Part shown: positions 8,035-45,572 of the stretch, in pieces
How positions within the stretch are numbered: position 1 is the first letter of the stretch
Layout of the letters: the number at the start of each line of letters is the position of its first letter
Translations under genes and position numbers: made by a program
The notes under the pieces: model-generated
Databases searched by the model: none
Seen by the model: the letters and a program-made list of their open reading frames with translations, nothing else
Told to the model about the DNA's origin: nothing
NCBI GenBank assembly: GCA_947594025.1
Contig: CANQDZ010000008.1
Location: forward strand, 1 to 47,697
DNA from: Candidatus Gastranaerophilales bacterium
GTDB lineage: Bacteria > Cyanobacteriota > Vampirovibrionia > Gastranaerophilales > Gastranaerophilaceae
DNA: 47,697 bases
Reading direction: 5' to 3'

Positions 8035-9159
8035 TCATTCCTCTCTTGTGTATATTCTGGGTAGTCTGACTTTCAGTCTGCATGTTAATTCATAATTTAT
8101 GGTGTTTAAAATTTGCGCCCACTCGTCAATAGAATAGAAATTCCCTTTCTCATCTTTTCCAAGCAGTGTAATAATATCGCCGATTTCAGCATCAACACCC
8201 GTTATGTCAAACATCATCTGGTCCATTGTGATGTTGCCTATTTGATTAACCTTGTGGTCGTTTAGCGAACCGCTTATTTTATTAGATAAGCTTCTTGCAA
8301 CACCATCCGCATATCCTATGGGTATTGTTGCAACTTTTACGGTTTTATTTGCTTTAAATGTATGTCCGTATGATACTCCTTCGCCTTCTTTAATTTCGTG
8401 GATATTTGTAATTCTTCCTTTAAGAGCTATTACTTGCTTTATGTCGTCAACTTTTCTGCCTTGTCCAAAAGGAGTAAGCCCGTATAAGACAATCCCGAGC
8501 CTTACCATGTTAAAATAACAGTCTTTATCAATAGTTGCGGGAGAATTTGCGCAATGAATAATTAAATTGCTTGAATTTATATTATTTATAATATTTTTAA
8601 AATTGCTTAATTGAGCTTCGTATATATCTTTATTTTCAACATCCGCAAAATGGGTAAAAACACCGTCAAGACTTACGTAATCTGCCCCTTGAACTTCCTT
8701 TATAAACTCTATTGCATTTTCGCATCTGACACCTATTCTGTTCATGCCCGTGTCTATTTTGATGTGAACATGAAGCTTTTTACCCGTTCTTTCATACAAA
8801 TCTTTTGCAACATAGAGGTGCTCTTTATTAAATATAGAAATTGCAATATTGTTTTTAATTGCGGTTTCAAAAGACCAAATGGGAACTGTTCCCAGAACAA
8901 GGACGGGAATATTTATTTTATTTTCACGAAGCTCAACCCCCTCATCAATGGAAGCCACACCAAACATATCAACTCCGCATGCAATAAGAGTCGGCGCACA
9001 CATAACGGAACCATGTCCGTATGCATCAGCCTTCACAACGGCAAGAGTTCTAACACCTTGAGGAAGAATGCTTTTAACTGTTTTTATATTATGTTCAAGG
9101 TGTTCCAGATTTATCTCAACCCAACCATCCCTGTGTTTATTTGAGCCCCTGTTTTGCAT
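8035..9159 (-). CDS. alr: Alanine racemase
   Basis: PLP enzyme that interconverts L- and D-alanine for peptidoglycan. The Schiff-base lysine is in VVKADAYGHGS, the second catalytic tyrosine in GEGVSYGHTF, and the PLP phosphate region is TIPIGYADGVAR. I chose ATG 9159 (MQNRGSNK), giving 374 residues. An upstream in-frame TTG at 9177 would add MFYPYV but has no ribosome binding site. A TATCCT hexamer at complement 9166-9171 lies exactly 6 bases before ATG 9159, matching the leaderless pattern seen elsewhere in the window; this hexamer match is weak. It is the first gene of the unit with gcvT-gcvH-gcvPA. Linking a cell-wall enzyme to glycine cleavage is unusual and may only reflect co-transcription. 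Confidence 0.95.
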   Translation of the reverse strand: MQNRGSNKHRDGWVEINLEHLEHNIKTVKSILPQGVRTLAVVKADAYGHGSVMCAPTLIACGVDMFGVASIDEGVELRENKINIPVLVLGTVPIWSFETAIKNNIAISIFNKEHLYVAKDLYERTGKKLHVHIKIDTGMNRIGVRCENAIEFIKEVQGADYVSLDGVFTHFADVENKDIYEAQLSNFKNIINNINSSNLIIHCANSPATIDKDCYFNMVRLGIVLYGLTPFGQGRKVDDIKQVIALKGRITNIHEIKEGEGVSYGHTFKANKTVKVATIPIGYADGVARSLSNKISGSLNDHKVNQIGNITMDQMMFDITGVDAEIGDIITLLGKDEKGNFYSIDEWAQILNTINYELTCRLKVRLPRIYTREE

Positions 9160-9221
9160 AACATAAGGATAGAACAAAAAGAGATAAAAATCCAGCTATA
9201 ATGGCAAATTTTTTATATTTT

Positions 9222-10229
9222 TTAAGAAAGTTTTTTTATAATCTCCTGCGTAAATTCGTCAGTTGTGGAATTTCCGCCTAAATCCTTGGTTTTTACTTTG
9301 CCTTCATCTAAAACTTTAAATAAGGCGTCTTCAATCTTTTGTGCGGTTTCAAATTCGCCTAAATGTTTAATCATCTCAATTGCGCATAAAAGAAGGGCTG
9401 TAGGATTTGCAAGATTTTTGCCTTTTATATCAGGTGCCGAGCCGTGAACAGGTTCAAAAACCGCTATTTCATGCCCGATATTTGCCCCCTGTGCCACACC
9501 AAGACCGCCTATAAGTCCTGCAGTTAAGTCGGAAACTATATCACCGTATAGGTTTGGCATAACTAAAACATCAAATTTTGAAGGATTTTGAACAAGCTGC
9601 ATGCATAAAGCGTCAACAAGAACTTCCTGATATTCAATTTTGCCTTCATATATTTTTGCAACTTCCCTTGCGCATTCTAAAAACAAGCCGTCTGTTAATT
9701 TACAAATATTTGCTTTAGTTACTGCCGTTACTTTTTTTCTTCCGTTCTTAAGAGCGTATTCAAACGCCCACTCAACAATTCTTGAAGATGCTTTTCTTGT
9801 AATAACCTTTATTCCATGAGCTTCATTATCATTAATTTTTTCTTCAATACCTGCGTAAAGGTCTTCCGTATTTTCCCTGACTACAACCAAATCGACATTT
9901 TCAAAAGGGGTTTTAATTCCTTTAATACTTTTACAAGGTCTTAAGTTTGCATACAAATCAAGGTCACGTCTCAATTGAACATTAACAGACCTAAATCCCT
10001 TACCGATAGGCGTTGTGACTGGAGCTTTAAGTGCAACTTTATTTTTTTTGATTGAATCTATTACCCTTTGAGGGAGAGGAATACCTTCTTTTTCCGCAAC
10101 ATCTGCGCCTGCGTGTTGAACGTCCCAGTTTATTTTAAGTCCGCTTGCTTCAATTATTTTAACAACGCTGTCTGAAATTTCAGGTCCTATTCCGTCCCCT
10201 TTTATTAAAGTTACATTATACAATTGCAA
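9222..10229 (-). CDS. NAD-dependent isocitrate dehydrogenase-like / isopropylmalate dehydrogenase family
   Basis: Beta-decarboxylating dehydrogenase of 335 residues. It reads LIKGDGIGPEIS, then SVNVQLRRDLDLYANLRPCK, ENTEDLYAGIE, and DVLVMPNLYGDIVSD. The C-terminus has EPVHGSAPDI and DLGGNSTTDEF. The SVN..LR segment and the NTEDLYAG block match the isocitrate dehydrogenase branch better than LeuB, which carries a different ALR context. So I favour isocitrate to 2-oxoglutarate, with homoisocitrate or 3-isopropylmalate as alternatives. The start is TTG inside the end of the upstream gene. TTG 10229 has GGAG only 3 bases upstream, while TTG 10223 has it at 9 bases and may be the true start. No ATG is available. 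It is coupled to the dehydratase small subunit. Confidence 0.9.
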   Translation of the reverse strand: MQLYNVTLIKGDGIGPEISDSVVKIIEASGLKINWDVQHAGADVAEKEGIPLPQRVIDSIKKNKVALKAPVTTPIGKGFRSVNVQLRRDLDLYANLRPCKSIKGIKTPFENVDLVVVRENTEDLYAGIEEKINDNEAHGIKVITRKASSRIVEWAFEYALKNGRKKVTAVTKANICKLTDGLFLECAREVAKIYEGKIEYQEVLVDALCMQLVQNPSKFDVLVMPNLYGDIVSDLTAGLIGGLGVAQGANIGHEIAVFEPVHGSAPDIKGKNLANPTALLLCAIEMIKHLGEFETAQKIEDALFKVLDEGKVKTKDLGGNSTTDEFTQEIIKKLS

Positions 10230-10719
10230 AATCTCCGTTTTTCTTTAAGTGTTCTATTAGTCCGCCGTCGTTTAAAAGTTTAATCATAACATCGGGCAAG
10301 GGAGTAATTTTTATTTCAAGATTTTTTGTAACATCTTTTAAAATGCCGTTTTTAACATCTAATTCCAAGGTATCGCCGTCATCAATATTATCCGTATCGC
10401 ATTCAATAAGAAGAAGCCCGATATTTATTGCATTTCTGTAAAAAATTCTTGCAAAACTTTTTGCAATAACCGCTCCGACTCCTGAAATTTTAATAATTTG
10501 AGGAGCATGCTCTCTGCTTGAACCAAGACCAAAATTATTTCCCGCAACAACAAAATCACCCTCTTTATGTCTTGATGCAAATGTCGGATCTGCATCTTCA
10601 AGTACATGTTTTGCAAACTCATTTAAATCTGACCTCAAGTGAAATAATCTGCCCGGTGCAATATGGTCCGTTGAAATATCATCACCAAATTTAAATGCAG
10701 TACCTTTTTTAATTTCCAT
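10216..10719 (-). CDS. HacB/LeuD-type dehydratase (aconitase-family) small subunit
   Basis: Swivel-domain small subunit of a two-subunit hydro-lyase. With a 4Fe-4S large subunit (absent from this window) it isomerises 3-isopropylmalate, homocitrate or citrate-type substrates. The 167-residue sequence has KFGDDISTDHIAPGR, the specificity loop RLFHLRSD, NFGLGSSREHAP and AKSFARIFYRNAINIGL. This is the short archaeal-like HacB/LeuD form and not the 200-residue enterobacterial LeuD. The loop reads HLRSD where many family members have YLRT. The start is ATG 10719, 6 bases after GGGAG; the open frame extends upstream to 10782 but that part overlaps the divergent promoter. Its 3' end overlaps the isocitrate-dehydrogenase-like gene. 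Confidence 0.9.
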   Translation of the reverse strand: MEIKKGTAFKFGDDISTDHIAPGRLFHLRSDLNEFAKHVLEDADPTFASRHKEGDFVVAGNNFGLGSSREHAPQIIKISGVGAVIAKSFARIFYRNAINIGLLLIECDTDNIDDGDTLELDVKNGILKDVTKNLEIKITPLPDVMIKLLNDGGLIEHLKKNGDFAIV

Positions 10720-10745
10720 AGTAACTCCCTTTTGTTTTTTTATAT

Positions 10746-10751
10746 TATAAT
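10746..10751 (+). promoter_or_regulatory. -10 box 6 bases before tyrA start (leaderless-type); symmetric, may also serve the divergent gene
   Basis: TATAAT at 10746-10751 is followed by 6 bases and the ATG at 10758. The transcript would start at or next to the A of ATG, and there is no ribosome binding site. The surrounding ATTATAAT sequence also contains -10-like hexamers on the opposite strand, upstream of the dehydratase small-subunit gene, so the 38-base gap may act as a bidirectional promoter. No good -35 box is visible. Confidence 0.6.
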
Positions 10752-10757
10752 TGAAAC

Positions 10758-11543
10758 ATGGCAAAAAAAGCAAAAATCGCAATTATTGGTCTTGGTTTAA
10801 TAGGCGGCTCCATTTTTAAATCATTAGATAAAAGAAAGTATGAAGTCATAGCCGTTTCAAAAAGCCAAAAGGGTAAAAATATTTATCAGAATTATGATAA
10901 ACTTAAAAACTTGGATTTGGTTTTTGTGTGCTCTAAAATGTCTGACACCCAAGGGATTTTGGATAATTTAAATGACATTCTTGATAAAAAAACAATAGTT
11001 TCGGATGTCTGCTCAATTAAAAAATGCATAAAAGATAAAGATTATAACTTTAATTTTATAATGTCACACCCCATGGCAGGAACCGAAAAAAGCGGTTACA
11101 AAGCTTCTTTTAAAGGTTTATTTAAGGGTGCAAAATGGGTGGTTTCAAAAAATAATCCTCTCTTAAACAAAGTAATCAGGGAGCTTGGCGCAAAACCGAT
11201 ATTAATGGATAAAAATACGCATGACGCATCAGCCGCTATGGTTTCACATATGCCAAACATTCTTGCGGCAGCGTTATTTTATTCAATACAAAGTAATAAT
11301 TCCGCAAAACTTTTAGCTTCAAGCGGTTTTCGTGATATGACAAGACTTGTGCTTTCAGACAGCTATTTACTTTCCGATATGCTTGAATACAATGAGAAAA
11401 ATATAAATCTCTCCCTCAATGAACTTGAAAAATCCTTGAACAAGATTAAAAAATTGTCATATAATGAGAGAGTAAATCTTTTTAAAGAACTGTCATCAAA
11501 AAGAGAGAAGATGTACAAAAATGGAAAAAATCAAACAACTTAA
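10758..11543 (+). CDS. tyrA: Prephenate/arogenate dehydrogenase
   Basis: NAD(P)-dependent oxidative decarboxylation of prephenate or arogenate in tyrosine synthesis. The N-terminal Rossmann motif is IAIIGLGLIGGSIF. The substrate-site signature SHPMAGTEKSGY lies around residues 108-119, and AAMVSHMPNILAAAL and SSGFRDMTRL follow in the helical dimerisation domain. At 261 residues it is a minimal TyrA with no chorismate mutase or ACT domain, so feedback control by an ACT domain is not expected. The start ATG 10758 has no ribosome binding site but a TATAAT box exactly 6 bases upstream. The end overlaps the LptF/G-type permease by 23 bases. Confidence 0.93.
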   Translation: MAKKAKIAIIGLGLIGGSIFKSLDKRKYEVIAVSKSQKGKNIYQNYDKLKNLDLVFVCSKMSDTQGILDNLNDILDKKTIVSDVCSIKKCIKDKDYNFNFIMSHPMAGTEKSGYKASFKGLFKGAKWVVSKNNPLLNKVIRELGAKPILMDKNTHDASAAMVSHMPNILAAALFYSIQSNNSAKLLASSGFRDMTRLVLSDSYLLSDMLEYNEKNINLSLNELEKSLNKIKKLSYNERVNLFKELSSKREKMYKNGKNQTT

Positions 11544-12660
11544 GTCCAGAGTTGAATACGAAATTAAAAATGCGAAGATATTGGATAAATATATCTTTAT
11601 GCAGCTTCTTGAAGTTTTCTTGTTTGGCGTTGTTGTCTTTACCTCTTTAATTTTTGCATCTGAAACATTTACGGTTATTATAAGAAAAATTTCCGAGTAC
11701 GGTATCCCCTTAAATATTGCACTTATGATGATTGTTTTGAACCTGCCTCAAATATTTGTGCTCTCAATTCCTATTTCGACATTGTTTGCGGTTGTAATGA
11801 CAATAAATAAATTAAGCTTAAATTCTGAAATCACGGTTTTAAAAGCTTGCGGTATAGGTATTGACAGAATTGCAAAGCCGGTTTTTGCTTTTGCAATTTT
11901 AATGACTGTATTGAGTTTATTTATAAACAACTTTATTGTTCCTTCAACAAGCAAACAATCACAGCTTTTAACAATATATTCACTGCAGCAAAAACACATT
12001 CCGGAAGGAAAGAAAAACTATACTCTGCGCGATTCTCAAAGGATATTTTATGTGCAGGAGTGCATAGATAAAACCCTTCTGAACGTGACTGTTTTGGATT
12101 TATCAAATAAAGATACCATTCAGCTTATACAGGCAAAAAAGGGACAAACAGACGCAATTGGCTGGATTTTTAAAGATGCCGTTTTGTACACAATATCAAC
12201 CACGGGAAAATTGTTTAATACGGCTGTATCGGACGAATTTGTGGTCAATTTTGGGCTTGATAATATGAATTTTGAAAAACTCCTTAAGGGAGATGCAAGC
12301 CAGTATGACTATTTCAAACTTTTTAAATTCATAATGAAAAACAAAGGACAAGCGCATTTTCCGATTGAAATGGAAAGAAAATACAGAGTTGAACTCCACG
12401 ATAAAGTTGCACTTCCCATGACAACAATGGTGCTTGCACTTGTCGGAATTCCTCTTGCAATTACTCCCCCGAGAGTGAGATACAACAGGGGTTTCTTGTT
12501 TAGTATTTTAATTATATTTTTATTCTATGTAATAAGGGCATTTTGTATAAATTTAGGCGAAACAGGCACTCTTACTCCGCTTTTTGCCGCGTGGCTTCCC
12601 GTTATTATAATTTTTTCTATCGGATACATTTTATACAAGAGAAAAGCTTACAATATATAA
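11521..12660 (+). CDS. LptF/LptG-family permease (YjgP/YjgQ)
   Basis: Inner-membrane permease of the lipopolysaccharide export ABC transporter LptB2FG. The 379-residue layout is that of the family: three N-terminal membrane helices (about residues 30-140, with IPISTLFAVVMTINKLSLNS and the coupling-helix region EITVLKACGIG), a periplasmic beta-jellyroll (about 145-270), and three C-terminal helices with DKVALPMTTMVLALVGIPLA. It supports an outer membrane. I cannot decide between LptF and LptG; in some diderms a single gene serves both roles. It overlaps tyrA by 23 bases, with a purine-rich GAGAGAAG upstream as possible ribosome binding site. Confidence 0.92.
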   Translation: MEKIKQLKSRVEYEIKNAKILDKYIFMQLLEVFLFGVVVFTSLIFASETFTVIIRKISEYGIPLNIALMMIVLNLPQIFVLSIPISTLFAVVMTINKLSLNSEITVLKACGIGIDRIAKPVFAFAILMTVLSLFINNFIVPSTSKQSQLLTIYSLQQKHIPEGKKNYTLRDSQRIFYVQECIDKTLLNVTVLDLSNKDTIQLIQAKKGQTDAIGWIFKDAVLYTISTTGKLFNTAVSDEFVVNFGLDNMNFEKLLKGDASQYDYFKLFKFIMKNKGQAHFPIEMERKYRVELHDKVALPMTTMVLALVGIPLAITPPRVRYNRGFLFSILIIFLFYVIRAFCINLGETGTLTPLFAAWLPVIIIFSIGYILYKRKAYNI

Positions 12661-14538: not shown

Positions 14539-16497
14539 ATGGAATCATCTAACAAAAATATTTCCTTTTGGTTATTGTTTGCATTTTTTATAGTGCTTGC
14601 GCTTGCAATTTTTTTAATGACATCAAATGTCTTTAGTTTAAAAACTGCAAGTTATGATTTTATGGTGAAAGTAAATTCCGACAAACAAAAACCTTCAAGC
14701 GATATTATGCTGGTTATAGTCGATGACAAATCATTAACGGAAATTGGCAGATGGCCTTGGAGCAGAGCTCGTTTTGATGAAATATTTGATTATTTGAATA
14801 ATTATACGGACTCGAAACTCATTGCATTTGATGCACTTATTGCCGCCAAAAATGTTGAAAATCCAAAAGATGACTCCGTGTTATTTGAAAATATAGGCAA
14901 ATATGACAAATTAACTGTGGGAGTTGCTTTCAGCGAAAAAGAATTTCCTTTTTCAAAAAGAGATATAACCAAATATAATCTTCTGCTTGACTCAAAAAAG
15001 GGTCTTACCATAAATGATGCAAGAACAAAGAAGCCAAACAGTATTTTTAACAGTTTTACACAATTTCCATACCAATATTTTGAAAATGCAAAAAATATGG
15101 GAGGCGTGAATATCATAAAAGATAGCGACGGCAAAGTAAGGCAGCTTCAACAAGTTATTGATTATAAGGGAATTTTATACCCTTCCATGGAGCTTATTTT
15201 GTACTCAAAGTACACCGGAATTAAAAATTTTACCCTTACAAATAAATATTTAACGGGCTCAAATAAATCTTACAGCCTTAAAATACCCATAACGAATATG
15301 AACGAAGGGATAAGCAACAATATATTTTTCTATTCCTCACCGGATAAGGTTTATTCTCACACCATAATTTCGGCGTCAGACATTTTAAAATCATATTATG
15401 CAATTAAAAAAGGTGAAGAACCGACGCTTGATAAAGAAATTTTTAAAGACAAGGTTGTGTTTGTGGGTGCAAATGCAAGTGCTCAATATGCAAAAGATGA
15501 AGTAAGGTCGCCTGTTTCGGATTTATTTTCGGGAACGGAGCTCCGAGCAACAAATTTCAACAATATGCTTAATAATCAATATTATGTTTCTACAAACAAT
15601 CTGTATGATTTTGTGATTGGAATAATGCTGTTTATTTTCATTTTTATGATTGTAAACGTTCTGCCTGTGCCTGTTGCTCTCATTTCTACATTTACGGTAA
15701 CCCTTCTTTATATGATTTTTTCCGGTTACATGTATAGCAAAAATATAGCGACAAATATGCTTTTACCGGTTATATTTGTTCCCATGGCACTTATTATGGG
15801 GTATGCTTATAAACTCATCCTTGAGGCTCAAAAGAATAAGCAAATTGAAAAAACGATGAGTAAGTATATCTCAAAAGACGTCATGGAAAATGTTATGCAA
15901 AATATAAACAGCGTCGGACTTGGGGGAAAAAGGTCAAATATATCCGTTCTTTTTGCTGATATAAGAGGTTTTACAACGATAAGCGAAGCACTGAGTGCGG
16001 AAGAAGTTTCTCTCATCTTAAATGAATATTTTTCTGCAATTGTCCCCATAATCGAAAAACACAGAGGGGTCTTAAATAAATTTGTGGGAGATGCCGTTTT
16101 GGCAATTTTTGGCGAGCCTATTCAAAATAAAGAACATGCGCTTGATGCAGTTAAATGCGGCTGGGATATGATAAATAAAGTAAAAGAACTTCAGGAAAAA
16201 TGGATTGAAGAGGGAAAACCAAAAATTGAAATAGGTATAGGCATTTCAACGGGTGAAGCGTTTGTCGGAAATATAGGCTCTGAAGACCGCTTCGAATATA
16301 CCGTGATTGGCGATACGGTAAACACTGCAAGCAGAATTGAAAACTTTAATAAGGTCTATAAAACCAAATTTTTAATAAGCCAGTCTACTTTTGATGCAGT
16401 TCAAAAACATGTGGATGTTCTTAAAATAAGAGATGTAGCCATAAGAGGCAAAGTAAAAAAAGTCAACCTGTACGAGGTTTTAAGGCTGATTAACTAA
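14539..16497 (+). CDS. CHASE2-domain class III adenylate cyclase, membrane bound
   Basis: Signal-sensing cyclase of 652 residues that would make cAMP. One N-terminal membrane helix (about 10-30) precedes an extracytoplasmic CHASE2 sensor (about 40-340; MLVIVDDKSLTEIGRWPWSR is typical). Three more helices (about 350-430) lead to the catalytic domain (about 475-650). The two metal aspartates are in LFADIRGF and KFVGDAVLAIFG. The purine-selecting residues read as the adenylate type: K in NKFVGD and D in TVIGDTVNTASR. The transition-state Asn and Arg are in VNTASRIE. The stop codon overlaps the recG start by one base. No cAMP receptor gene is nearby. CHASE2 cyclases are common in cyanobacteria. 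Confidence 0.93.
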   Translation: MESSNKNISFWLLFAFFIVLALAIFLMTSNVFSLKTASYDFMVKVNSDKQKPSSDIMLVIVDDKSLTEIGRWPWSRARFDEIFDYLNNYTDSKLIAFDALIAAKNVENPKDDSVLFENIGKYDKLTVGVAFSEKEFPFSKRDITKYNLLLDSKKGLTINDARTKKPNSIFNSFTQFPYQYFENAKNMGGVNIIKDSDGKVRQLQQVIDYKGILYPSMELILYSKYTGIKNFTLTNKYLTGSNKSYSLKIPITNMNEGISNNIFFYSSPDKVYSHTIISASDILKSYYAIKKGEEPTLDKEIFKDKVVFVGANASAQYAKDEVRSPVSDLFSGTELRATNFNNMLNNQYYVSTNNLYDFVIGIMLFIFIFMIVNVLPVPVALISTFTVTLLYMIFSGYMYSKNIATNMLLPVIFVPMALIMGYAYKLILEAQKNKQIEKTMSKYISKDVMENVMQNINSVGLGGKRSNISVLFADIRGFTTISEALSAEEVSLILNEYFSAIVPIIEKHRGVLNKFVGDAVLAIFGEPIQNKEHALDAVKCGWDMINKVKELQEKWIEEGKPKIEIGIGISTGEAFVGNIGSEDRFEYTVIGDTVNTASRIENFNKVYKTKFLISQSTFDAVQKHVDVLKIRDVAIRGKVKKVNLYEVLRLIN

Positions 16498-18902
16498 TGG
16501 ATTATTTCACACTATATCAAAATTTAACTAAAGCAATAAGTATTGAAAGAGAGCATAAATATATTGATTTTCCCGGAAACAGGATGGAATTTTCAGAATA
16601 TATTTTAAAATCTCTCTATCAAATTAAGAAAAAACTGGCAAGAGAAGAAAAAGCAAAAATTGATGTTTTGATATATTGTTTTGAGCAATACAGATATGAT
16701 TCTGTTTCGGGCAAACAAAATTCTGTTGAAAAATTGGAAAAAGCTCTGTCTTATTACAAAAGACAATTTAAAAAGCTTGAGCCTAAAGAAATGCCGAGAG
16801 ACGTTTGGCAAAGCGAAATTGATAAAATAAAAGTTGATTATGTAAAGGGAGTAGGTCCAAAACTCGGACAATTGTTCAAAAAACTATCCATTGAAACCGT
16901 GAGCGACCTGTTTGAATTCTATCCGAGAAAATATCTTGATTATGAAGGCAAAACAAGAATAAAGGATTTGCAAGAAGGTGAAGATGTAAGCTTTTTTGCA
17001 ACAATCAAAAAGGTTTCCGCCTATCCGACATCTAAGAATTTATCGGTTATAAAAGTAACCTTAGGGGATAGTTCAGGTTCAATAAATATCACCTTCTTTT
17101 ATAAAGTAAGAACGAGAAGAATGCTTGAAAGATATAAGGCGCAATATCCTTTAAATGCCGGCGTTTTAGCGTTTGGAAAAGTAAAATATGATAACTTCTC
17201 ATCTTCTCTCACGCTTGATAAACCGACTATTCAAGTTATAAACTGTGATTTTGATGATGACACAATAAGCTACGGAAAAATTGTTCCAATATATTCTTTA
17301 ACCGAGGATTTATCTTCAAAAGTGTTAGTGAAGGCAATTTATAATGCATATCAAACGTATCGGGATAAAATCAAAGACCCCCTTCCTGAGTATATAATTG
17401 AAGAAGAAAACCTTATAAGCAAAAAAGAGGCAATAAAGCTTATTCACTTTCCGCAAAGTCAGAAGGATATAGATAAAGCAAGGGAAAGGCTTGTTTTTGA
17501 TGAACTTTTCATAATGCAGGCAAATTTTGCTCTTGCAAAAGAGAGAAACAAAAAAATATATAAATCTACCCCCCTTTCAATTAAGAAAGGCGGGCTTGTT
17601 GAAAGATTTATTAAGAGTCTGCCTTTTGAACTTACAAATGCACAGAAAAAAGCCGTGGATGAAATATTACACGATTTAAATTCGACGGAGCCCATGCAAA
17701 GACTTCTTCAAGGAGATGTAGGCTCAGGTAAAACCGTTGTTGCATGTATTTGTTTGTTGTGTGCAATAGAAAACGGCTATCAAGGAGCTATTATGGCACC
17801 GACTGAAATCCTTGCAACCCAGCATTATAAAAATTTTGTTGAATGGCTTACTCCTTTAAATGTGAGTGTGGGTTTGTTTTTAGGAAAACACGGAACAAAG
17901 ACAAGGAGAGAAATGCTCACAAACCTTAAAAACGGGCAAATGAATATAGCAGTTGGCACCCACGCTCTTATTCAAGAGGGAGTTGAATTTAATAACCTCG
18001 GTGCCGTTATTATTGATGAACAGCACAGATTTGGCGTTAAACAAAGAGCAAAACTCCACAGCAAAGGTGACTACGCACAAATGCTCACAATGACTGCAAC
18101 CCCCATTCCAAGAACACTTGCGCTTACGGTTCATGGGGATTTAGATGTTACAACAATAGATGAAATGCCAAAAGGCAGACTGCCGGTTAAAACAGAACTT
18201 ATGACTCTTTCAGGTCAAGCAAAGGCATTTCGGTTAATAAAAGAAGAAATAGCAAAAGGTCATCAGGCATATATTGTTTACCCTTTAATTGATGAAAGCG
18301 AAACAATATCTGCTAAAAATGCGACTCAGGAATATGAAAAATTAAAAACTACGGTATTTAAAGATTATAAATTGGGACTTCTTCACGGAAAACTGGATAA
18401 CAAGGAAAAAGAAGAAGTAATGGCGGATTTCAAGAATAAAAAATTTGATATATTAATTTCAACAACCGTTGTGGAAGTCGGCGTTGATGTACCTAATGCA
18501 ACCGTTATCGTTATAGAAAATGCGGAAAGATTTGGACTGTCGCAGCTTCATCAACTGAGAGGCAGAGTCGGAAGAAGTTCTGACCAGTCATATTGCGTGC
18601 TGGTATCTTCAGGAAGCTCGAAAACAATAAAAGACAGGCTCGGGATTATGACGCAGACAAATGACGGTTTTGTTGTTGCGCAAAAAGACTTGGAAATAAG
18701 GGGACCCGGAGAATTTTTAGGCACGAGACAAAGCGGAATTCAAGAACTTGGTATAACCGATATTGTATCTGATGTAAAAATTCTTGAAAGAGCAAGAAAA
18801 CAAGCCTTTAATCTTGTTGAAAACCGTAATATTGAGGATTATCCCGACCTTATCCATGAAATCAGCAAAAAAGACTTTTTTGACCCTATGCGGGCAGGAT
18901 AG
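16497..18902 (+). CDS. recG: ATP-dependent DNA helicase RecG
   Basis: Remodels stalled replication forks and branch-migrates Holliday junctions. At 801 residues it is longer than the typical 680-700; the extra about 110 residues are an N-terminal extension before VDYVKGVGPKLGQLFKKLSI, similar to the helical extension found in cyanobacterial, Thermotoga and plant RecG. The wedge/OB domain follows, then helicase motifs GDVGSGKTVVA (Walker A, about residue 406), DEQHRFGVKQR, TATPIPRTLALT, STTVVEVGVDVPNA and QLRGRVGRSSDQSYC. The ATG overlaps the cyclase stop codon (TAATG). It is convergent with the TonB-like gene, one base apart. Confidence 0.97.
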   Translation: MDYFTLYQNLTKAISIEREHKYIDFPGNRMEFSEYILKSLYQIKKKLAREEKAKIDVLIYCFEQYRYDSVSGKQNSVEKLEKALSYYKRQFKKLEPKEMPRDVWQSEIDKIKVDYVKGVGPKLGQLFKKLSIETVSDLFEFYPRKYLDYEGKTRIKDLQEGEDVSFFATIKKVSAYPTSKNLSVIKVTLGDSSGSINITFFYKVRTRRMLERYKAQYPLNAGVLAFGKVKYDNFSSSLTLDKPTIQVINCDFDDDTISYGKIVPIYSLTEDLSSKVLVKAIYNAYQTYRDKIKDPLPEYIIEEENLISKKEAIKLIHFPQSQKDIDKARERLVFDELFIMQANFALAKERNKKIYKSTPLSIKKGGLVERFIKSLPFELTNAQKKAVDEILHDLNSTEPMQRLLQGDVGSGKTVVACICLLCAIENGYQGAIMAPTEILATQHYKNFVEWLTPLNVSVGLFLGKHGTKTRREMLTNLKNGQMNIAVGTHALIQEGVEFNNLGAVIIDEQHRFGVKQRAKLHSKGDYAQMLTMTATPIPRTLALTVHGDLDVTTIDEMPKGRLPVKTELMTLSGQAKAFRLIKEEIAKGHQAYIVYPLIDESETISAKNATQEYEKLKTTVFKDYKLGLLHGKLDNKEKEEVMADFKNKKFDILISTTVVEVGVDVPNATVIVIENAERFGLSQLHQLRGRVGRSSDQSYCVLVSSGSSKTIKDRLGIMTQTNDGFVVAQKDLEIRGPGEFLGTRQSGIQELGITDIVSDVKILERARKQAFNLVENRNIEDYPDLIHEISKKDFFDPMRAG

Positions 18903-18903
18903 C

Positions 18904-20469
18904 CTAAAGGTCAATTACGAGTGTTAAAGTGACGTTTTCTTTATCAACGTTTGGCTGCTCCATATATGTAAACGTTTGGACAATGTTTCTCTGAATTAAG
19001 TCATCAATTGAATTTGAACCTGAACTTTTAACAATTTTAAGCCCGATAATGGATGTATCGCCGGAGAATTGAACATCAACTTTTATATTTTTGTTTTTAG
19101 GAATTTCTTTAGATAGAACCAAGTCGTTTTCCAGTCTCAGTCTTATATTTTTGCCCGCAGCCTGCAAGAAACCGAGGTATTCTTGGTCTTCACTGACCTT
19201 TTTTGGAACTTCCCAGGAAATATTTTTAATAATATCCGAGGGATTGGGAATATTGTTTTCTTCAGCGTATTCAACGGCGTTCATTTCGTAATCGCCATAC
19301 TTGAATGACTCACCTGTTTCAGAGAAATCGCCCGCCTGATTTGTATAGTCAATATTCGTTTCTTCGCCGCCGTTAATTTGCCCTTCATCAAAGCTTATCC
19401 TGTCTTTGTTAGCACCAAAAGACACAAGCCCTACTACCGCACCGCCAATAATTAAAATAATTAATCCCACAAGAAGTGCGACTTTTCTTCTTTCAAAAAG
19501 TTTTGAGAAAACTTCAAGATTGAATATGGATTTTGCCTTATCTTTAAATATAAATTCGACTTCCTGTTTTTTTGTTGTAGTTTTGTGTGCTTCAATGTCT
19601 TTTTTATCATCCCAGGAAAGATTGGAAATAAAATCAATTGTATTATCCGAAAAATCATAAATTCCTGATATAAATTTTGTGAAGGCGTCTTTTTCACGTC
19701 TTACTCCGCCAACTTTTTTATATAAGGCTGCGCTTGAGTTTGTTACCTTTTCATACAGACCTTGATGCAAATTCGGGTATTTTTCCGCATCTTTCATTCC
19801 CCTGTGATATTTTTCAAAAGACAGAAAACTTTTTGTACAGCTTTCACAGTTCAAAAGATGTCTTATAAAAGACCTTTTTTTGTTAGGGATAAGCTCGTTC
19901 TCCAGAAATCTTAAAAATAAGGCTTCGCAATCTATGTGTTTATCAACCGGACTTTGAGGTTTTTTCCTTTTGTCGGAGATTTTGTTAAACATATCTTTAA
20001 TCGGATAACGCTTATCGGGATAATAATATTTTGAATCATGGTAAGAAGATATGACATCCTGCGGTTTAACAAAACCTAAAATTCTAAAGTCACCCAGATT
20101 TTGAGCCATTTTGATTACAATATAAAAATCAGGCATTATACCGTATACAACATGGCTTTTTGGCACTCTTGTCATATTTGTATTAAAGTTTGTAATTACG
20201 TCAATCCTGAAATTGTTATAGTAAATATCGGTTATTTCAAATTTTTCAAGGATAGACGGACTTTTATGGAGGCTTCTTTCCGTTTTGCATTCATAACCCT
20301 GCTCCTTAAGATAATTTAAAATTGCAAGTATACCCATTAAATCGACATAGCTTTTCTTCCTCATGCCTGAAGAAGATATTTTTGAAGCTATATTGGCTGC
20401 ATATTTGGAAAAAGATTTTTCTTGCGTTGCAGCACTTGTTAAAGCATTTTTCACAAGATTTTGTATCAA
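18904..20469 (-). CDS. DUF1822-like / zinc-finger / TM / TonB-like C-terminal protein
   Basis: The function is unknown and the 521-residue domain order is unusual. Residues about 20-140 resemble DUF1822, a cyanobacterial family (YVDLMGILAILNYLKEQGYE and a following ILGFVKPQDV segment). A short H-x3-C-x2-C cluster (H204, C208, C211), with C181 upstream, resembles zinc-binding anti-sigma domains. A single membrane helix spans about 329-351. The last 80 residues (about 440-521) look like a TonB C-terminal domain (VDVQFSGDTSIIGLKIVKSS). The N-terminus would be cytoplasmic and the TonB-like end periplasmic. The start is TTG 20469 with GGAGAGG about 7 bases upstream. No sigma factor gene is adjacent. 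The DUF1822 assignment is moderate. Confidence 0.85.
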   Translation of the reverse strand: MIQNLVKNALTSAATQEKSFSKYAANIASKISSSGMRKKSYVDLMGILAILNYLKEQGYECKTERSLHKSPSILEKFEITDIYYNNFRIDVITNFNTNMTRVPKSHVVYGIMPDFYIVIKMAQNLGDFRILGFVKPQDVISSYHDSKYYYPDKRYPIKDMFNKISDKRKKPQSPVDKHIDCEALFLRFLENELIPNKKRSFIRHLLNCESCTKSFLSFEKYHRGMKDAEKYPNLHQGLYEKVTNSSAALYKKVGGVRREKDAFTKFISGIYDFSDNTIDFISNLSWDDKKDIEAHKTTTKKQEVEFIFKDKAKSIFNLEVFSKLFERRKVALLVGLIILIIGGAVVGLVSFGANKDRISFDEGQINGGEETNIDYTNQAGDFSETGESFKYGDYEMNAVEYAEENNIPNPSDIIKNISWEVPKKVSEDQEYLGFLQAAGKNIRLRLENDLVLSKEIPKNKNIKVDVQFSGDTSIIGLKIVKSSGSNSIDDLIQRNIVQTFTYMEQPNVDKENVTLTLVIDL

Positions 20470-20568
20470 ATTTTACCTCTCCTTAGATAAAAAGTCCTGT
20501 TTACAAGATACACTTAAAATGAAATATTTTCAATATTTTTAAAGAAAAAGAAGGACAGACGGTGTTAC

Positions 20569-41040: not shown

Positions 41041-42408
41041 TTATAAAAGCTCAGCACCCGCCGTTGCTTTATATAATCCGATTTGGTCAACATAGTTATC
41101 AATTTTGCTTGAGACAACGAGTTTTTCAATATCAAGCAAGGTTTCTTTTCTTTGCGTCAAATCAAGATATGACATAACGCCTTCCTCATATTGAAGTTCG
41201 CTGTATCTGAAATCTTTCTTTTCCATATCGTATATTTGCACGTTCTTTTGATATTTTTCATTATCAAGCTTTAAAGTGCTCAATGAGTCGTTTACTTCTT
41301 GGATAGATGTTAAATTTGTTTTATAGTAGTTTTGAAGAATTTCTTCGTAAACACTTTTTTGTAATTTTAAATTTGCAATTCTTTTACCGCCAGTAAATAT
41401 AGGTAAAAGTCCGTTTGCGCCGACACCTGCAAGAGCTGTTTCCCAGCCCATTGAGCCAAGCCCTGCAATAGATGCGGCGGTAAATGTAATTAAACCTCCG
41501 ATATCAATTGTCGGTAAAAATTCTTTTTTGGCAACCCTTACATCCATTTTTGCCTTTTCAACCATTTTTTGGGCAGCAAGATAGTCAGGTCTTGAAACTA
41601 TAACTTCTGAAGAAATAGTTTGAGGGATTTGTTTTTCGCCTGAAAGCTCATCGTAGGAAATTCTTTTGATTTCGTTTGAGTTATTTGGGCTTTCACCGAT
41701 TAATACGCACAAGGTATTTAGCATTATCTCTCTTGCTTTTTTAAGTTCAATTAAGTCTGTTGTTGAAAGTACGTATGCTTTTTCCGCTCTTGTTAAATCC
41801 GCAGTTGATGTAATGCCTGCTTCATTTCGTTTCTTCATTAAATCATAGATTGTTTTTCTGTCTTTAATAATCTTGTCTTGAATTTCTATCAGTTTATCGA
41901 GTTTTACTATATTATAATAAGCAGTACCTACCGCACCAGCAACTGCAATATAGACCGCTTTTTCCTGATATTGTTTAGCTTCGTATGCCTTTTTCAAGCT
42001 TCTTGTTTTATCTCTGTTTTTCAAAAATAAATCAAGCTCATAAGTTGCAATAAAAGGAACTGAAAAAAATCCCGTGGATTTTGTTTCCCTTGGTATTTTT
42101 GCAAGTATGGGCGACGCGCCGACTGACAGTGTCGGAAGTTCATCCCCTAATTGAATATTTGAAGCTTGTCTTGCCTGTTCAACTTTTTGTGCCGCAATTT
42201 TCAAGTCATTGTTATTTTCAAGTGCTTTAACGATATAACCTGATAAATATTCATCGTTATATTCTTGCCACCATGCCAGATTTATATAATCAGCTTTTGT
42301 TTCCTCATGTTTTTTAGTATTTTTAATAGCAAAGGCTTCCATTGGAAGAACAAAAGTCGAAAATATTCCAAACAAAATAGTTAATGCTACCAGCTTTTTT
42401 GTATTCAT
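41041..42408 (-). CDS. TolC/NodT-type outer-membrane efflux protein
   Basis: Outer-membrane channel of a tripartite pump, 455 residues. A signal peptide (ending MEAFA) precedes two OEP repeats, each with long coiled coils: ALENNNDLKIAAQKVEQARQ in the first, and VSRPDYLAAQKMVEKAKMDV in the second with preceding EFLPTIDIGGL. Two such repeats form the beta barrel and periplasmic tunnel. No lipobox cysteine is seen at the cleavage site, so it is TolC-like and not a lipoprotein. AGGAAAAG lies about 6 bases upstream of the ATG. It is divergent from marR and the pump genes and shares their operator region, so it is probably the partner channel. Confidence 0.93.
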   Translation of the reverse strand: MNTKKLVALTILFGIFSTFVLPMEAFAIKNTKKHEETKADYINLAWWQEYNDEYLSGYIVKALENNNDLKIAAQKVEQARQASNIQLGDELPTLSVGASPILAKIPRETKSTGFFSVPFIATYELDLFLKNRDKTRSLKKAYEAKQYQEKAVYIAVAGAVGTAYYNIVKLDKLIEIQDKIIKDRKTIYDLMKKRNEAGITSTADLTRAEKAYVLSTTDLIELKKAREIMLNTLCVLIGESPNNSNEIKRISYDELSGEKQIPQTISSEVIVSRPDYLAAQKMVEKAKMDVRVAKKEFLPTIDIGGLITFTAASIAGLGSMGWETALAGVGANGLLPIFTGGKRIANLKLQKSVYEEILQNYYKTNLTSIQEVNDSLSTLKLDNEKYQKNVQIYDMEKKDFRYSELQYEEGVMSYLDLTQRKETLLDIEKLVVSSKIDNYVDQIGLYKATAGAELL

Positions 42409-42445
42409 AATCTTTCTTTTCCTTCAAAAATCTTTGTACTTGCAT

Positions 42446-42473
42446 TTAGAATAATAACATGCTAGCATATAAG
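42446..42473 (+). promoter_or_regulatory. Promoter of the marR-pump operon
   Basis: TTAGAA (42446-42451) and TATAAG (42468-42473) are separated by 16 bases. On the minus strand TATTAT (complement 42451-42456) is a possible -10 for the divergent channel gene, with TTGCAA (complement 42476-42481) 19 bases further away. A second perfect palindrome ATGCTAGCAT lies at 42459-42468 between the boxes. Confidence 0.5.
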
Positions 42474-42489
42474 TGTTGCAAATGCAACA
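42474..42489. promoter_or_regulatory. Probable MarR operator palindrome
   Basis: TGTTGCA AA TGCAACA is a perfect 7-bp inverted repeat with a 2-base centre, of the size bound by MarR dimers. It abuts the -10 box of the marR-pump promoter and covers its start site and the -35 box of the divergent channel promoter. A weaker half-site pair ATGTT/AACAT follows at 42489-42506. Autorepression by the adjacent MarR protein is inferred. Confidence 0.7.
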
Positions 42490-42517
42490 TGTTTTTACAG
42501 CAACATAAATAGAAGAT

Positions 42518-42979
42518 ATGAAAGTACCGGAAAGATATACAGAAAGTTTATTTTATCAAATTGAACTTACAAGCAAATACTTCAAATATTTGATTAATCA
42601 AGTATTTGAAAAGCTTGATATAAAAATTTCGCCTGATAATTTTGCAGTACTTGATATTTTAATTCAGGCACCCGATATTTGCCAAAGAGATTTAGCCAAG
42701 ATATTGTTAAAAGATAGAGCAAATACGGGTAAAATCGTAAATTCCCTCGAGGAAAAAGGACTTGTAAAAAGATTTATAGACATAAAAGGTAAAAGACTGG
42801 TTAAAAAATTAAGAATAACCGATGAGGGACATAAATGCGTAAAAGAAATAAGCGAAAAAACAAAATATATTGCAAAACTGTTTGATAAGCAGGTAATGCA
42901 CGAAGAACAAACCAAAGTTAAACAATCGCTTATGAGCATAAGAAGTTTTTTAAAGGAAAATATTGAAACGAATATATAG
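42518..42979 (+). CDS. MarR-family transcriptional regulator
   Basis: Winged-helix repressor, 153 residues, likely dimeric. The helix-turn-helix region reads DICQRDLAKILLKDRANTGK, then the wing SLEEKGLVKRFIDIKGKRLV, matching the MarR fold. It probably senses a small lipophilic compound and controls the neighbouring pump. ATG 42518 has no strong ribosome binding site. The gene starts the operon marR-HlyD-EmrB and lies next to the palindrome it is expected to bind. The next gene starts 8 bases after its stop. Confidence 0.92.
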   Translation: MKVPERYTESLFYQIELTSKYFKYLINQVFEKLDIKISPDNFAVLDILIQAPDICQRDLAKILLKDRANTGKIVNSLEEKGLVKRFIDIKGKRLVKKLRITDEGHKCVKEISEKTKYIAKLFDKQVMHEEQTKVKQSLMSIRSFLKENIETNI

Positions 42980-42987
42980 GAGACCGT

Positions 42988-43983
42988 ATGGAAGACAAGG
43001 AAAAAATTGAAAAAGAACAGGAAAACGCAAAGAAAAAAGTGCAAAAAAGACTTATTTTGATACCTTTATGTATTTTGCTTGGAACTCTTGCAATATATTT
43101 ATATTGGGATGCAAGTCATTATCAATCAACCGATGATGCGTATATTGAAACACATATGGTGAAAATAGCACCTAAAGTTTCAGGCGAGGTTGTTGAAGTT
43201 TACATAGATGATAATCAACAGGTCAAAGAAGGCGATTTGGTTGTTAAAATTGATGATGCCGACTATAAAGTTCGCTTTGAGCAAGCAGATGCAATGTACC
43301 AAAAAGCACTTGTTGACCAAAAAGTTGCACAGGCAAATTTAAAAGCTGCTCAATCAGAGATTAATCTTGCAGCACTTGACCTTGAAAGATATAAAAAATT
43401 ATATGAATCAGGTGCGGTTTCAAAACAAGCACTTGATAATGCGCAAACAAAATATGACGGCGTTCAGGCAAAATATAAACATGCTGAAGAACAAATTATA
43501 ACCAATAACAACAGCAATGTTGCGGATGCAAACATTAAATCCCTTAAAGCAGCAAGAGACCAGGCAAAATTATACTTAGAATATACAAATGTTATTGTTC
43601 CGAGAACAGGCAGAGTAACAAACAAAAACGTGGAAAAAGGCGCATTTGTGTCCGTCGGACAGCCTTTATTTACGGTAACACCCGACAAAGTTTGGATTGT
43701 TGCAAACTACAAAGAAAGTCAAGTCGGTAAAATGAAACCCGGACAAGAAGTAAAAATTAAAGTAGATGCCTATCCAAATAAAGTATTTAAAGGCAAAATT
43801 GACTCAATACAAAGAGCATCAGGCGCAAAATCAAGCTTATTCCCGCCTGAAAACGCTGTAGGTTCATTTGTAAAAATTGTGCAAAGAATACCTGTAAAAA
43901 TCGTATTTGATGAAGAAATTGACCCTGAAAAATATAATATCGTTTCAGGAATGTCAGTAGTACCAAAGGTGAGGGTTAAATAA
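42988..43983 (+). CDS. EmrA/HlyD-type membrane fusion protein
   Basis: Periplasmic adaptor of an MFS-type tripartite pump, 331 residues. A single N-terminal membrane helix (about 17-36, LILIPLCILLGTLAIYLYWD) follows a charged cytoplasmic head. The biotinyl-lipoyl halves read YQSTDDAYIETHMVKIAPKV and VYIDDNQQVKEGDLVVKIDD, flanking a coiled-coil hairpin (QADAMYQKALVDQKVAQANL). The beta-barrel part is VFKGKIDSIQRASGA. Ribosome binding site GGAG about 6 bases upstream. It pairs with the following EmrB-like pump (5-base gap) and the divergent TolC-type channel. Confidence 0.95.
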   Translation: MEDKEKIEKEQENAKKKVQKRLILIPLCILLGTLAIYLYWDASHYQSTDDAYIETHMVKIAPKVSGEVVEVYIDDNQQVKEGDLVVKIDDADYKVRFEQADAMYQKALVDQKVAQANLKAAQSEINLAALDLERYKKLYESGAVSKQALDNAQTKYDGVQAKYKHAEEQIITNNNSNVADANIKSLKAARDQAKLYLEYTNVIVPRTGRVTNKNVEKGAFVSVGQPLFTVTPDKVWIVANYKESQVGKMKPGQEVKIKVDAYPNKVFKGKIDSIQRASGAKSSLFPPENAVGSFVKIVQRIPVKIVFDEEIDPEKYNIVSGMSVVPKVRVK

Positions 43984-43988
43984 TTAAA

Positions 43989-45572
43989 ATGTCTGAAGCC
44001 CAAGCGCAACAAATTAAAGAAACAAATGAGGAAGATTGGACCAAGGGTAAAAACCCGTGGTTACTTGCCTTGCCTACCATTTTTGCAGCATTTATGTTTG
44101 TATTGGATGAGACAATTGCAAACGTAGCGCTTCCTTATATGGCAGGCACATTCTCCGTAAGCCGTGAAGAATCAACCTGGATTTTGACAAGCTATCTTGT
44201 AGCTTCAGGTATTACAATTCCTACTGTCGGCTGGTTTTCAAAACTTCTTGGCAGAAAAAACTTTTTCTGCATAAGTCTTTTGGTTTTTATCGGCGCATCG
44301 TTTGCATGCGGAATTTCAACCTCCTTAGGCGCTATGGTTTTAGCAAGAATTGCGCAGGGTTTTGGCGGCGGAAGCTTGCTTCCTATCTCACAAGCAATTA
44401 TGCTTGAAGCGTTCCCTAAAGAACAACGCGGAGTTGCAATGGCAGCTTTTGGTATGGTTGTTGTGACCGCGCCGATTATAGGGCCTGTTGTCGGCGGGTA
44501 CATAACGACAAACATGTCTTGGCACTGGATATTTTTTATAAATCTTCCTATCGGTATTTTTGCATTTTTCCTTGCAAGATATTTGCTTGAAGATCCTCCT
44601 TATGCAAGGAAACAATCAGGTGTTTCGATTGACGGATGGGGATTTTTCTTCTTAACCGTTTGGCTTGCAACTTTGCAAGTGGTTCTTGATAAAGGAAATA
44701 ACGCCGATTGGTTCCATGCGGCATGGGTCGTAAGAGTATCAATTATTTCCGTAATCTCCTTGATTATGTTTGTCACCATACAGTTAAACTCAAAAAAACC
44801 GCTTATTGATTTGTCGGTATTTAAAGACAGAAATTACCTTATAGGCACATTTGTTCAGGTTATTATGCAGGCAATTTTGCTTGGTTCGCTTGCAATATTA
44901 CCTCAATTCTTGCAGATGATGCTCGGATATGATGCATTTCTTAGCGGTTTAACGGTTATGCCGAGAGGCTTCGGCGCGATGACCGCAACAATTTTATACG
45001 CAATTTTTTCAAATAAAGTCGATAACAGAATTCTTTGTGCAATAGGCGTCATATTAATGGGAATTGCGGGCTTAAGTTTTGGCTTCTTAAACTTGGATAT
45101 TGCGACAATAAATGTTGCAATTCCAAATTACATATATGGGCTTGGCATGGCACTTGCAATGATTCCAATCATCACATTATCGGTTATCACGCTGAAAAAT
45201 GAGCAGATGACAAATGCTTCAGGACTTCAAAACCTTGTCAAAAACGTAGGCGGTGCAATTGGTACATCAATTGTAACAACTATGATTTCAAGATTTTCTC
45301 AAATGCATCAATTTATGCTGGTAAAAAATCTGACCGACTTAAATCCGGAATTTGTTGCAAGAGTTGCAGCAACAAAAGGCGCATTAATGCAATATGCGAC
45401 AGAATCCGTTGCGGAGTATATGGCACAATATTCTCAATACGGTGCGTTAATAAAACAATCTACATTATTCGGCTTTATTGATGCATTTAGAGTGTTCGGA
45501 CTTCTTGCTTTTTCTCTTGTACCTTTATTCTTCTTGCTTAGGGTGCCAAAAGATACAAACAAAGAAAGTTAA
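43989..45572 (+). CDS. EmrB/QacA-type MFS drug efflux pump (DHA2, 14 TM)
   Basis: Proton-driven exporter of 527 residues with about 14 membrane helices. Typical DHA2 motifs: FVLDETIANVALPYMAGTF in helix 1, LARIAQGFGGGSLLPISQAI, and the antiporter motif GPVVGGYITTNMSWHWIFFI. Substrates are probably lipophilic drugs, bile salts or similar compounds, which cannot be read from sequence. It starts 5 bases after the adaptor gene, closing the marR operon. No obvious terminator follows; the 361-base gap after it begins with a 12-bp palindrome. Confidence 0.95.
   Translation: MSEAQAQQIKETNEEDWTKGKNPWLLALPTIFAAFMFVLDETIANVALPYMAGTFSVSREESTWILTSYLVASGITIPTVGWFSKLLGRKNFFCISLLVFIGASFACGISTSLGAMVLARIAQGFGGGSLLPISQAIMLEAFPKEQRGVAMAAFGMVVVTAPIIGPVVGGYITTNMSWHWIFFINLPIGIFAFFLARYLLEDPPYARKQSGVSIDGWGFFFLTVWLATLQVVLDKGNNADWFHAAWVVRVSIISVISLIMFVTIQLNSKKPLIDLSVFKDRNYLIGTFVQVIMQAILLGSLAILPQFLQMMLGYDAFLSGLTVMPRGFGAMTATILYAIFSNKVDNRILCAIGVILMGIAGLSFGFLNLDIATINVAIPNYIYGLGMALAMIPIITLSVITLKNEQMTNASGLQNLVKNVGGAIGTSIVTTMISRFSQMHQFMLVKNLTDLNPEFVARVAATKGALMQYATESVAEYMAQYSQYGALIKQSTLFGFIDAFRVFGLLAFSLVPLFFLLRVPKDTNKES

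Follow-up and report, generated by a model that had tools for sequence, protein, structure and literature searches.

The window, a stretch of 47,697 nucleotides from a Candidatus Gastranaerophilales bacterium, encodes a protein that is probably a single-pass inner-membrane class I anti-sigma factor with a periplasmic sensor of the TonB/TolA fold. Computation revealed the domains of this protein and its likely topology, the linkage of its relatives to an ECF sigma factor gene, and a conserved ECF-type promoter in front of the operon (Table 1). The sequence-only reading of this DNA had proposed that the protein signals across the membrane and couples envelope state to transcription; the survey of neighboring sigma factor genes supports that proposal.

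Gene context and family architecture

The open reading frame is real. It starts with TTG behind a good Shine-Dalgarno sequence and lies on the minus strand, which the sequence-only reading had left unstated. Its 3' end is 1 base from the end of a recG-like gene on the plus strand, and a ribosomal-S15-like gene is divergent from it; the gene therefore stands alone in its own genome (1.5 Mb), where it is present as a single copy. Searches of the protein against NCBIfam gave no useful match, and PADLOC gave no defence-system match. In the surrounding DNA (14539-18902), a CHASE2/adenylate-cyclase-like gene is followed by the recG-like gene, and these neighbors also flank the homologue in L080, L082 and L092; CHASE2 genes are also found beside DUF1822 genes on cyanobacterial plasmids. 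Farther along the window (41041-45572), the gene for a TolC-like outer-membrane protein (minus strand) is divergent from a MarR-HlyD-EmrB-like efflux set, which looks ordinary as read from its translations.

Table 1. Features of the window gene and of the operon in related genomes; positions are those of the window unless a locus is named.
Feature	Position	Strand	Basis or remarks
ORF, 521 aa	18904..20469	minus	DUF1822-like, zinc anti-sigma, linker, TM and TonB/TolA-like periplasmic parts
Putative ECF-type promoter, TGAAAA-N14-TGTAT	20508..20532	minus	degenerate copy of family consensus TGGAATAWTT-N10-TGT[C/A]A
Shine-Dalgarno sequence AAGGAGAGG	20476..20484	minus	upstream of TTG start
DUF1822-like N-terminal domain, aa 20-170	19960..20412	minus	Pfam, HMM-HMM, AlphaFold (pLDDT >90 over most)
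Predicted class I anti-sigma domain, aa 177-245	19735..19941	minus	matches RsiW and RslA
Predicted zinc ligands, H178-x25-H204-x3-C208-x2-C211; C181 also present	19837..19938	minus	sequence, alignment
Single TM helix, aa about 331-351	19417..19479	minus	N-in/C-out, positive-inside rule for family
Periplasmic TonB/TolA-like C-terminal domain, aa 414-521	18907..19230	minus	Pfam, profile, AlphaFold
Third operon gene, zinc ribbon/STAND/TPR	L075 17779-19902; L084 4103-7459; L085 12515-15676		

Homologues were found in 186 of the 192 genomes and 44 of the 45 genera of the order, which makes this a core gene and its architecture more than a product of chance. In a class-wide search, strong matches were confined to the Gastranaerophilales-type order, and weak matches (E values of 2e-8 to 7e-4) occurred in one other family of the class. 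The full-length nonredundant members (n=85) range from 456 to 1376 aa, and this variation resides in the linker between the zinc domain and the TM helix, which is strongly acidic in the long forms. The order of the parts is constant in all 85 members: the DUF1822-like domain, the helical cluster, the linker, the TM helix, a short periplasmic stretch (median 70 aa, n=85) and the TonB-like domain. The single TM helix, placed at 329-351 by the sequence-only reading, was recovered at nearly the same position. The family (n=85) carries more Lys/Arg residues before this helix than after it (means of 3.7 vs 1.7), which fits an N-in/C-out topology.

In four genomes of one genus (g12; L228, L229, L230 and L231), the protein is split over two genes, which encode a soluble DUF1822-anti-sigma protein of approximately 300-327 aa and a TM-TonB protein of 635-690 aa and are followed by the sigma gene. 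This split suggests that each half can stand as a module of its own.

The anti-sigma domain and its predicted zinc ligands

When a profile of the N-terminal region was compared with all PDB sequences, RsiW (E=2.3e-4), DdvA (E=0.21) and RslA (E=0.53) were matched at the cluster; the two top-ranking matches, to the designed proteins OR497 and OR329, reflect the composition of helical repeats and were set aside as artefacts. In the AlphaFold model (pLDDT 92.9, pTM 0.86), residues 177-245 align with zinc-form RsiW (Z 6.7) and with RslA (Z 6.1), values that are modest for helical bundles, so that the sequence profile is the stronger evidence. With RsiW of Bacillus subtilis and RslA of Mycobacterium tuberculosis, the window protein shares a helical anti-sigma domain with an optional H-x3-C-x2-C zinc site and, with class I anti-sigma factors generally, one TM helix and, in its relatives, a genetic link to an ECF sigma factor (PMC7406223). 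It differs from them in that a DUF1822 domain precedes the anti-sigma domain, the periplasmic domain is TonB/TolA-like, a long acidic linker is present in most relatives, and the anti-sigma gene stands before the sigma gene, the reverse of the usual order. Similarly, FecR/FecI signaling combines a cytoplasmic sigma-binding part, one TM helix and a periplasmic sensor; unlike FecR, the window protein has no Pfam match to the FecR domain up to an E value of 10, and no TonB-dependent transducer was detected in its genome.

The zinc cluster H204-x3-C208-x2-C211 is exactly as claimed earlier; that claim had overlooked C181 and also H178, with which the pattern becomes the classic H-x25-H-x3-C-x2-C. 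The Pfam model zf-HC2 alone falls below its cut-off in the window protein (E=0.038). Across the family, the four ligands are complete in 43 of the 85 homologues, H178 alone is missing in 2, and the set is missing in 40, of which 33 have none of the five positions and 7 retain a single stray Cys. The H-x3-C-x2-C signature is thus present in 45/85, and the ligands are all-or-none, the behavior described for class I anti-sigma domains, in which zinc and zinc-free members are mixed within one family (PMC7406223). In a tree that used only the DUF1822 part, 39 zinc-free rows group in one well-supported clade and one more falls outside it; members with the zinc ligands occur in other families of the order as well as in several clades of the window's own family. 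The helix sequence is retained where the zinc ligands are lost. The cysteines are therefore conserved, as had been expected, in 45 homologues, but their loss elsewhere is concerted and mainly confined to one clade; likewise, a cluster typical of anti-sigma factors is present, but about half of the sampled family does without the zinc site. In the window protein, the anti-sigma domain probably binds zinc.

The DUF1822-like domain

The DUF1822-like character of the N-terminus was confirmed by Pfam (PF08852, E=1.5e-7, 31.3 bits vs a cut-off of 25) and by HMM-HMM comparison with 23 cyanobacterial DUF1822 proteins (probability 90.6, E=1.3e-6). With this match and with the metal ligands kept in 45 homologues, the test by which the sequence-only reading could have been refuted did not refute it. 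The Pfam match spans only positions 7-130 of the 370 in the model and leaves the rest uncovered; the window protein is better described as containing a DUF1822-like domain than as a typical member of that family. It resembles the cyanobacterial DUF1822 proteins encoded beside ECF sigma factors (PMC8195603) in having a DUF1822 domain and, in its relatives, a sigma neighbor. On the other hand, the cyanobacterial proteins are approximately 390 aa long and lack both the H-x3-C-x2-C signature and a predicted TM helix, and DUF1822 was the sole Pfam domain in the two that were scanned.

The AlphaFold model of the DUF1822 part shows an alpha/beta fold. Nucleases, mainly of the PD-(D/E)XK type, make up nearly all of its structural neighbors. 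The best structural match of residues 1-170 was I-Ssp6803I (Z 8.7), and Foldseek E values were no better than 6e-3; the domain may have a PD-(D/E)XK nuclease-like fold. As judged by the order of residues in the sequence rather than by coordinates, the catalytic D...(D/E)xK pattern is incomplete, since D81-x8-D90-x-I92 and V118-x-K120 each lack one catalytic residue. At position 92, where a catalytic Lys would be expected, the window protein has Ile and 63/85 relatives have Arg, and the would-be catalytic aspartates are not kept in cyanobacterial DUF1822. With these residues replaced or lost, a nuclease-like fold, if correctly assigned, is probably inactive.

In photosynthetic Cyanobacteria, an ECF-type sigma gene lies immediately upstream of the DUF1822 gene on the same strand at all 30 loci, which were the best-scoring ones rather than a random sample. 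Plasmid records show a gene annotated as sigma-70 followed by DUF1822, the pair being accompanied by CHAT, caspase or CHASE2 genes; in two further plasmid records, the gene upstream of DUF1822 is annotated as hypothetical. A 2021 survey also placed ECF sigma and DUF1822 genes beside caspase (EACC2-caspase) genes and called DUF1822 a TPR protein (PMC8195603); the model shows the alpha/beta fold described above instead of TPR. DUF1822 is likely a partner of sigma factors.

This constant partnership, which holds even for proteins with no recognizable anti-sigma domain, would also be expected if the protein served the sigma factor as a necessary co-activator or chaperone and were not mainly an inhibitor. 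Among membrane regulators of sigma factors, some act as inhibitors and yet are needed as well; the PUMA3 regulator is a reported example (PMC2729926). However, the domain matched here is an inhibitory class I anti-sigma fold, which by definition binds and inhibits sigma (PMC7406223), and we regard a mainly activating role as distinctly unlikely.

Linkage to an ECF sigma factor

The survey of neighboring sigma factor genes proposed earlier gave a positive result in both groups. In addition to the 30 cyanobacterial loci, an ECF sigma gene lies directly downstream of the homologue, on the same strand, in 103 of the 112 genomes for which both genes were listed; of the 9 genomes that differ, the two genes fall on separate contigs in 5, and the other 4 are members of the short-form clade. 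In the long-form genera, the downstream gene encodes a protein of approximately 195 aa that TIGR02937 identifies as an ECF sigma factor (E values down to 4.9e-21), as in L085, where the homologue (8970-11840) is followed by the sigma gene (11877-12476). Sigma profile matches were obtained in 190/192 genomes, the weak ones of which may be other sigma factors. The operon often contains a third gene, for a protein of approximately 1000 aa with a double zinc ribbon, an AAA/STAND-type ATPase and TPR. In L087, L088 and L089, from other families of the order, this zinc ribbon/STAND/TPR gene lies away from the sigma gene.

The window's own genome has a sigma ortholog (G000:C18:6257-6835, profile E=5.7e-27) that is unlinked to the window gene and divergent (TIGR02937, 22.6 bits vs a cut-off of 42.9), and the ortholog is likewise unlinked in related short-form genomes. 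In G151 (genus g23), the anti-sigma homologue is present and the partner sigma profile found no match; the rest of the genus gave weak matches only. The unlinked, divergent ortholog in this genome and clade and the result for G151 weaken the anti-sigma reading, as do the sub-cut-off zf-HC2 match and the reversed gene order. The unlinked, divergent ortholog and the weak or absent matches in one related genus would suit a short-form protein that, in the window's lineage, has lost its sigma partner and been repurposed in the envelope. Against such a change of function, which we consider unlikely, the window gene still encodes the anti-sigma domain with its metal ligands and is still preceded by a sequence like an ECF promoter.

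A conserved ECF-type promoter

The pattern TG[AG]AAN-N14-TGT[AC][ATC] was found in 42 of the 85 upstream regions vs a mean of 0.54 (maximum 3) in mononucleotide shuffles, a comparison in which the related genomes are not independent. A 13-base spacer gave 17 matches and other lengths gave 0-2, and the corresponding block stands out in phylogenetic footprints of each of two separate clades. Genome-wide, the exact match occurs once in each of 9 of the 12 genomes searched, always at this operon. One-mismatch sites in the 12 genomes are scattered, and most of those examined lie inside genes; as candidates for a wider regulon, they were set aside as chance matches. In sequence, the conserved block looks like an autoregulated ECF promoter, with a -35 element like GGAAT and a -10 element like TGTC, and would be recognized by the partner sigma factor. 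Farther upstream than the promoter is another conserved block (for example, in L003, L010, L075 and L076), reading TATTAAGAAAATGCAACAAA in one clade and TTTGTTACAAAA in another; it is possibly a regulator site.

The periplasmic TonB/TolA-like domain

The TonB-type C-terminus noted earlier was also borne out. The AlphaFold model of this part matches TolA (Z 8.5) and Helicobacter pylori TonB (Z 8.2), the C-terminal profile weakly matches TonB, TolA and HasB, and TonB_2 scores 21.7 bits, just under the Pfam cut-off of 22. This fold raises the alternative that the protein is a second TonB/TolA, energized by ExbB/ExbD, which moves or braces the outer membrane while its cytoplasmic domains merely regulate the motor. 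ExbB and two tandem ExbD proteins are indeed encoded in the order (ExbD in 59/60 genomes), within approximately 10-25 kb of this gene in several genomes, yet Plug-type receptors occur in only 7 of the 60 genomes, and no TonB-dependent receptor (Plug) was found in the window's own genome. In TonB, a histidine of the TM helix couples the protein to ExbB/D; the helix has no His in 81/85 family members, the window protein included. In addition, the operon partner of the family is a sigma factor rather than ExbB/D, and a dedicated TonB-like gene already exists in the exbB-exbD-exbD operon. Because the TM helix has no histidine, a separate TonB-like gene is at hand and no Plug receptor was found here, the window protein is probably not a working TonB, and the second-TonB alternative is highly improbable. 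The operon in question (L079 7710-14017; G000:C2, about 73709-80016) encodes the dedicated TonB-like protein, ExbB, two tandem ExbD and an AsmA/YhdP-like protein.

Returning to the anti-sigma reading, the TonB-like domain may touch an outer-membrane protein, a contact that stays conditional because no TonB-dependent receptor was detected in the window's genome. The same result weakens the anti-sigma reading itself, as does the scattered and mostly intragenic distribution of promoter sites elsewhere. A precedent is offered by the PUMA3 ECF system of Pseudomonas aeruginosa (VreA-VreI-VreR), in which VreA is proposed to bear a TolA/TonB-like domain in the periplasm that is believed to help convey the envelope signal (PMC2729926). 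In PUMA3, a separate protein carries this domain together with an STN domain, whereas here it is fused to the anti-sigma factor. In the open-access literature searched, no report was found of an anti-sigma domain and a TonB/TolA fold in one chain, VreA being the nearest reported case, and no direct report on sigma factors in this order was found.

Proposed mechanism and implications

Based on the results presented above, the cytoplasmic part, composed of the DUF1822-like and anti-sigma domains, would bind an ECF sigma factor and block its access to RNA polymerase. This sigma factor would be the one encoded adjacently in most relatives and, in the window's genome, the unlinked ortholog. The linker and the one TM helix would join the cytoplasmic part to the periplasmic sensor. 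A change at the periplasmic domain or in its envelope partner, through loss of that partner or through proteolysis, would then free the sigma factor, which would first activate its own operon and perhaps a small regulon that escaped detection.

A more specific version, which we offer only tentatively and consider doubtful, is a trans-envelope anti-sigma factor whose TonB/TolA arm engages an outer-membrane or cell-wall partner and relays load, or the loss of contact, directly to the sigma factor; its DUF1822 domain would be a catalytically dead, nuclease-derived sigma-partner domain associated with ECF factors throughout Cyanobacteria.

DUF1822, so far named only as a domain of unknown function, gains a testable role from this analysis, and the gene appears to be a core switch that connects envelope and transcription throughout an order of non-photosynthetic Cyanobacteria.
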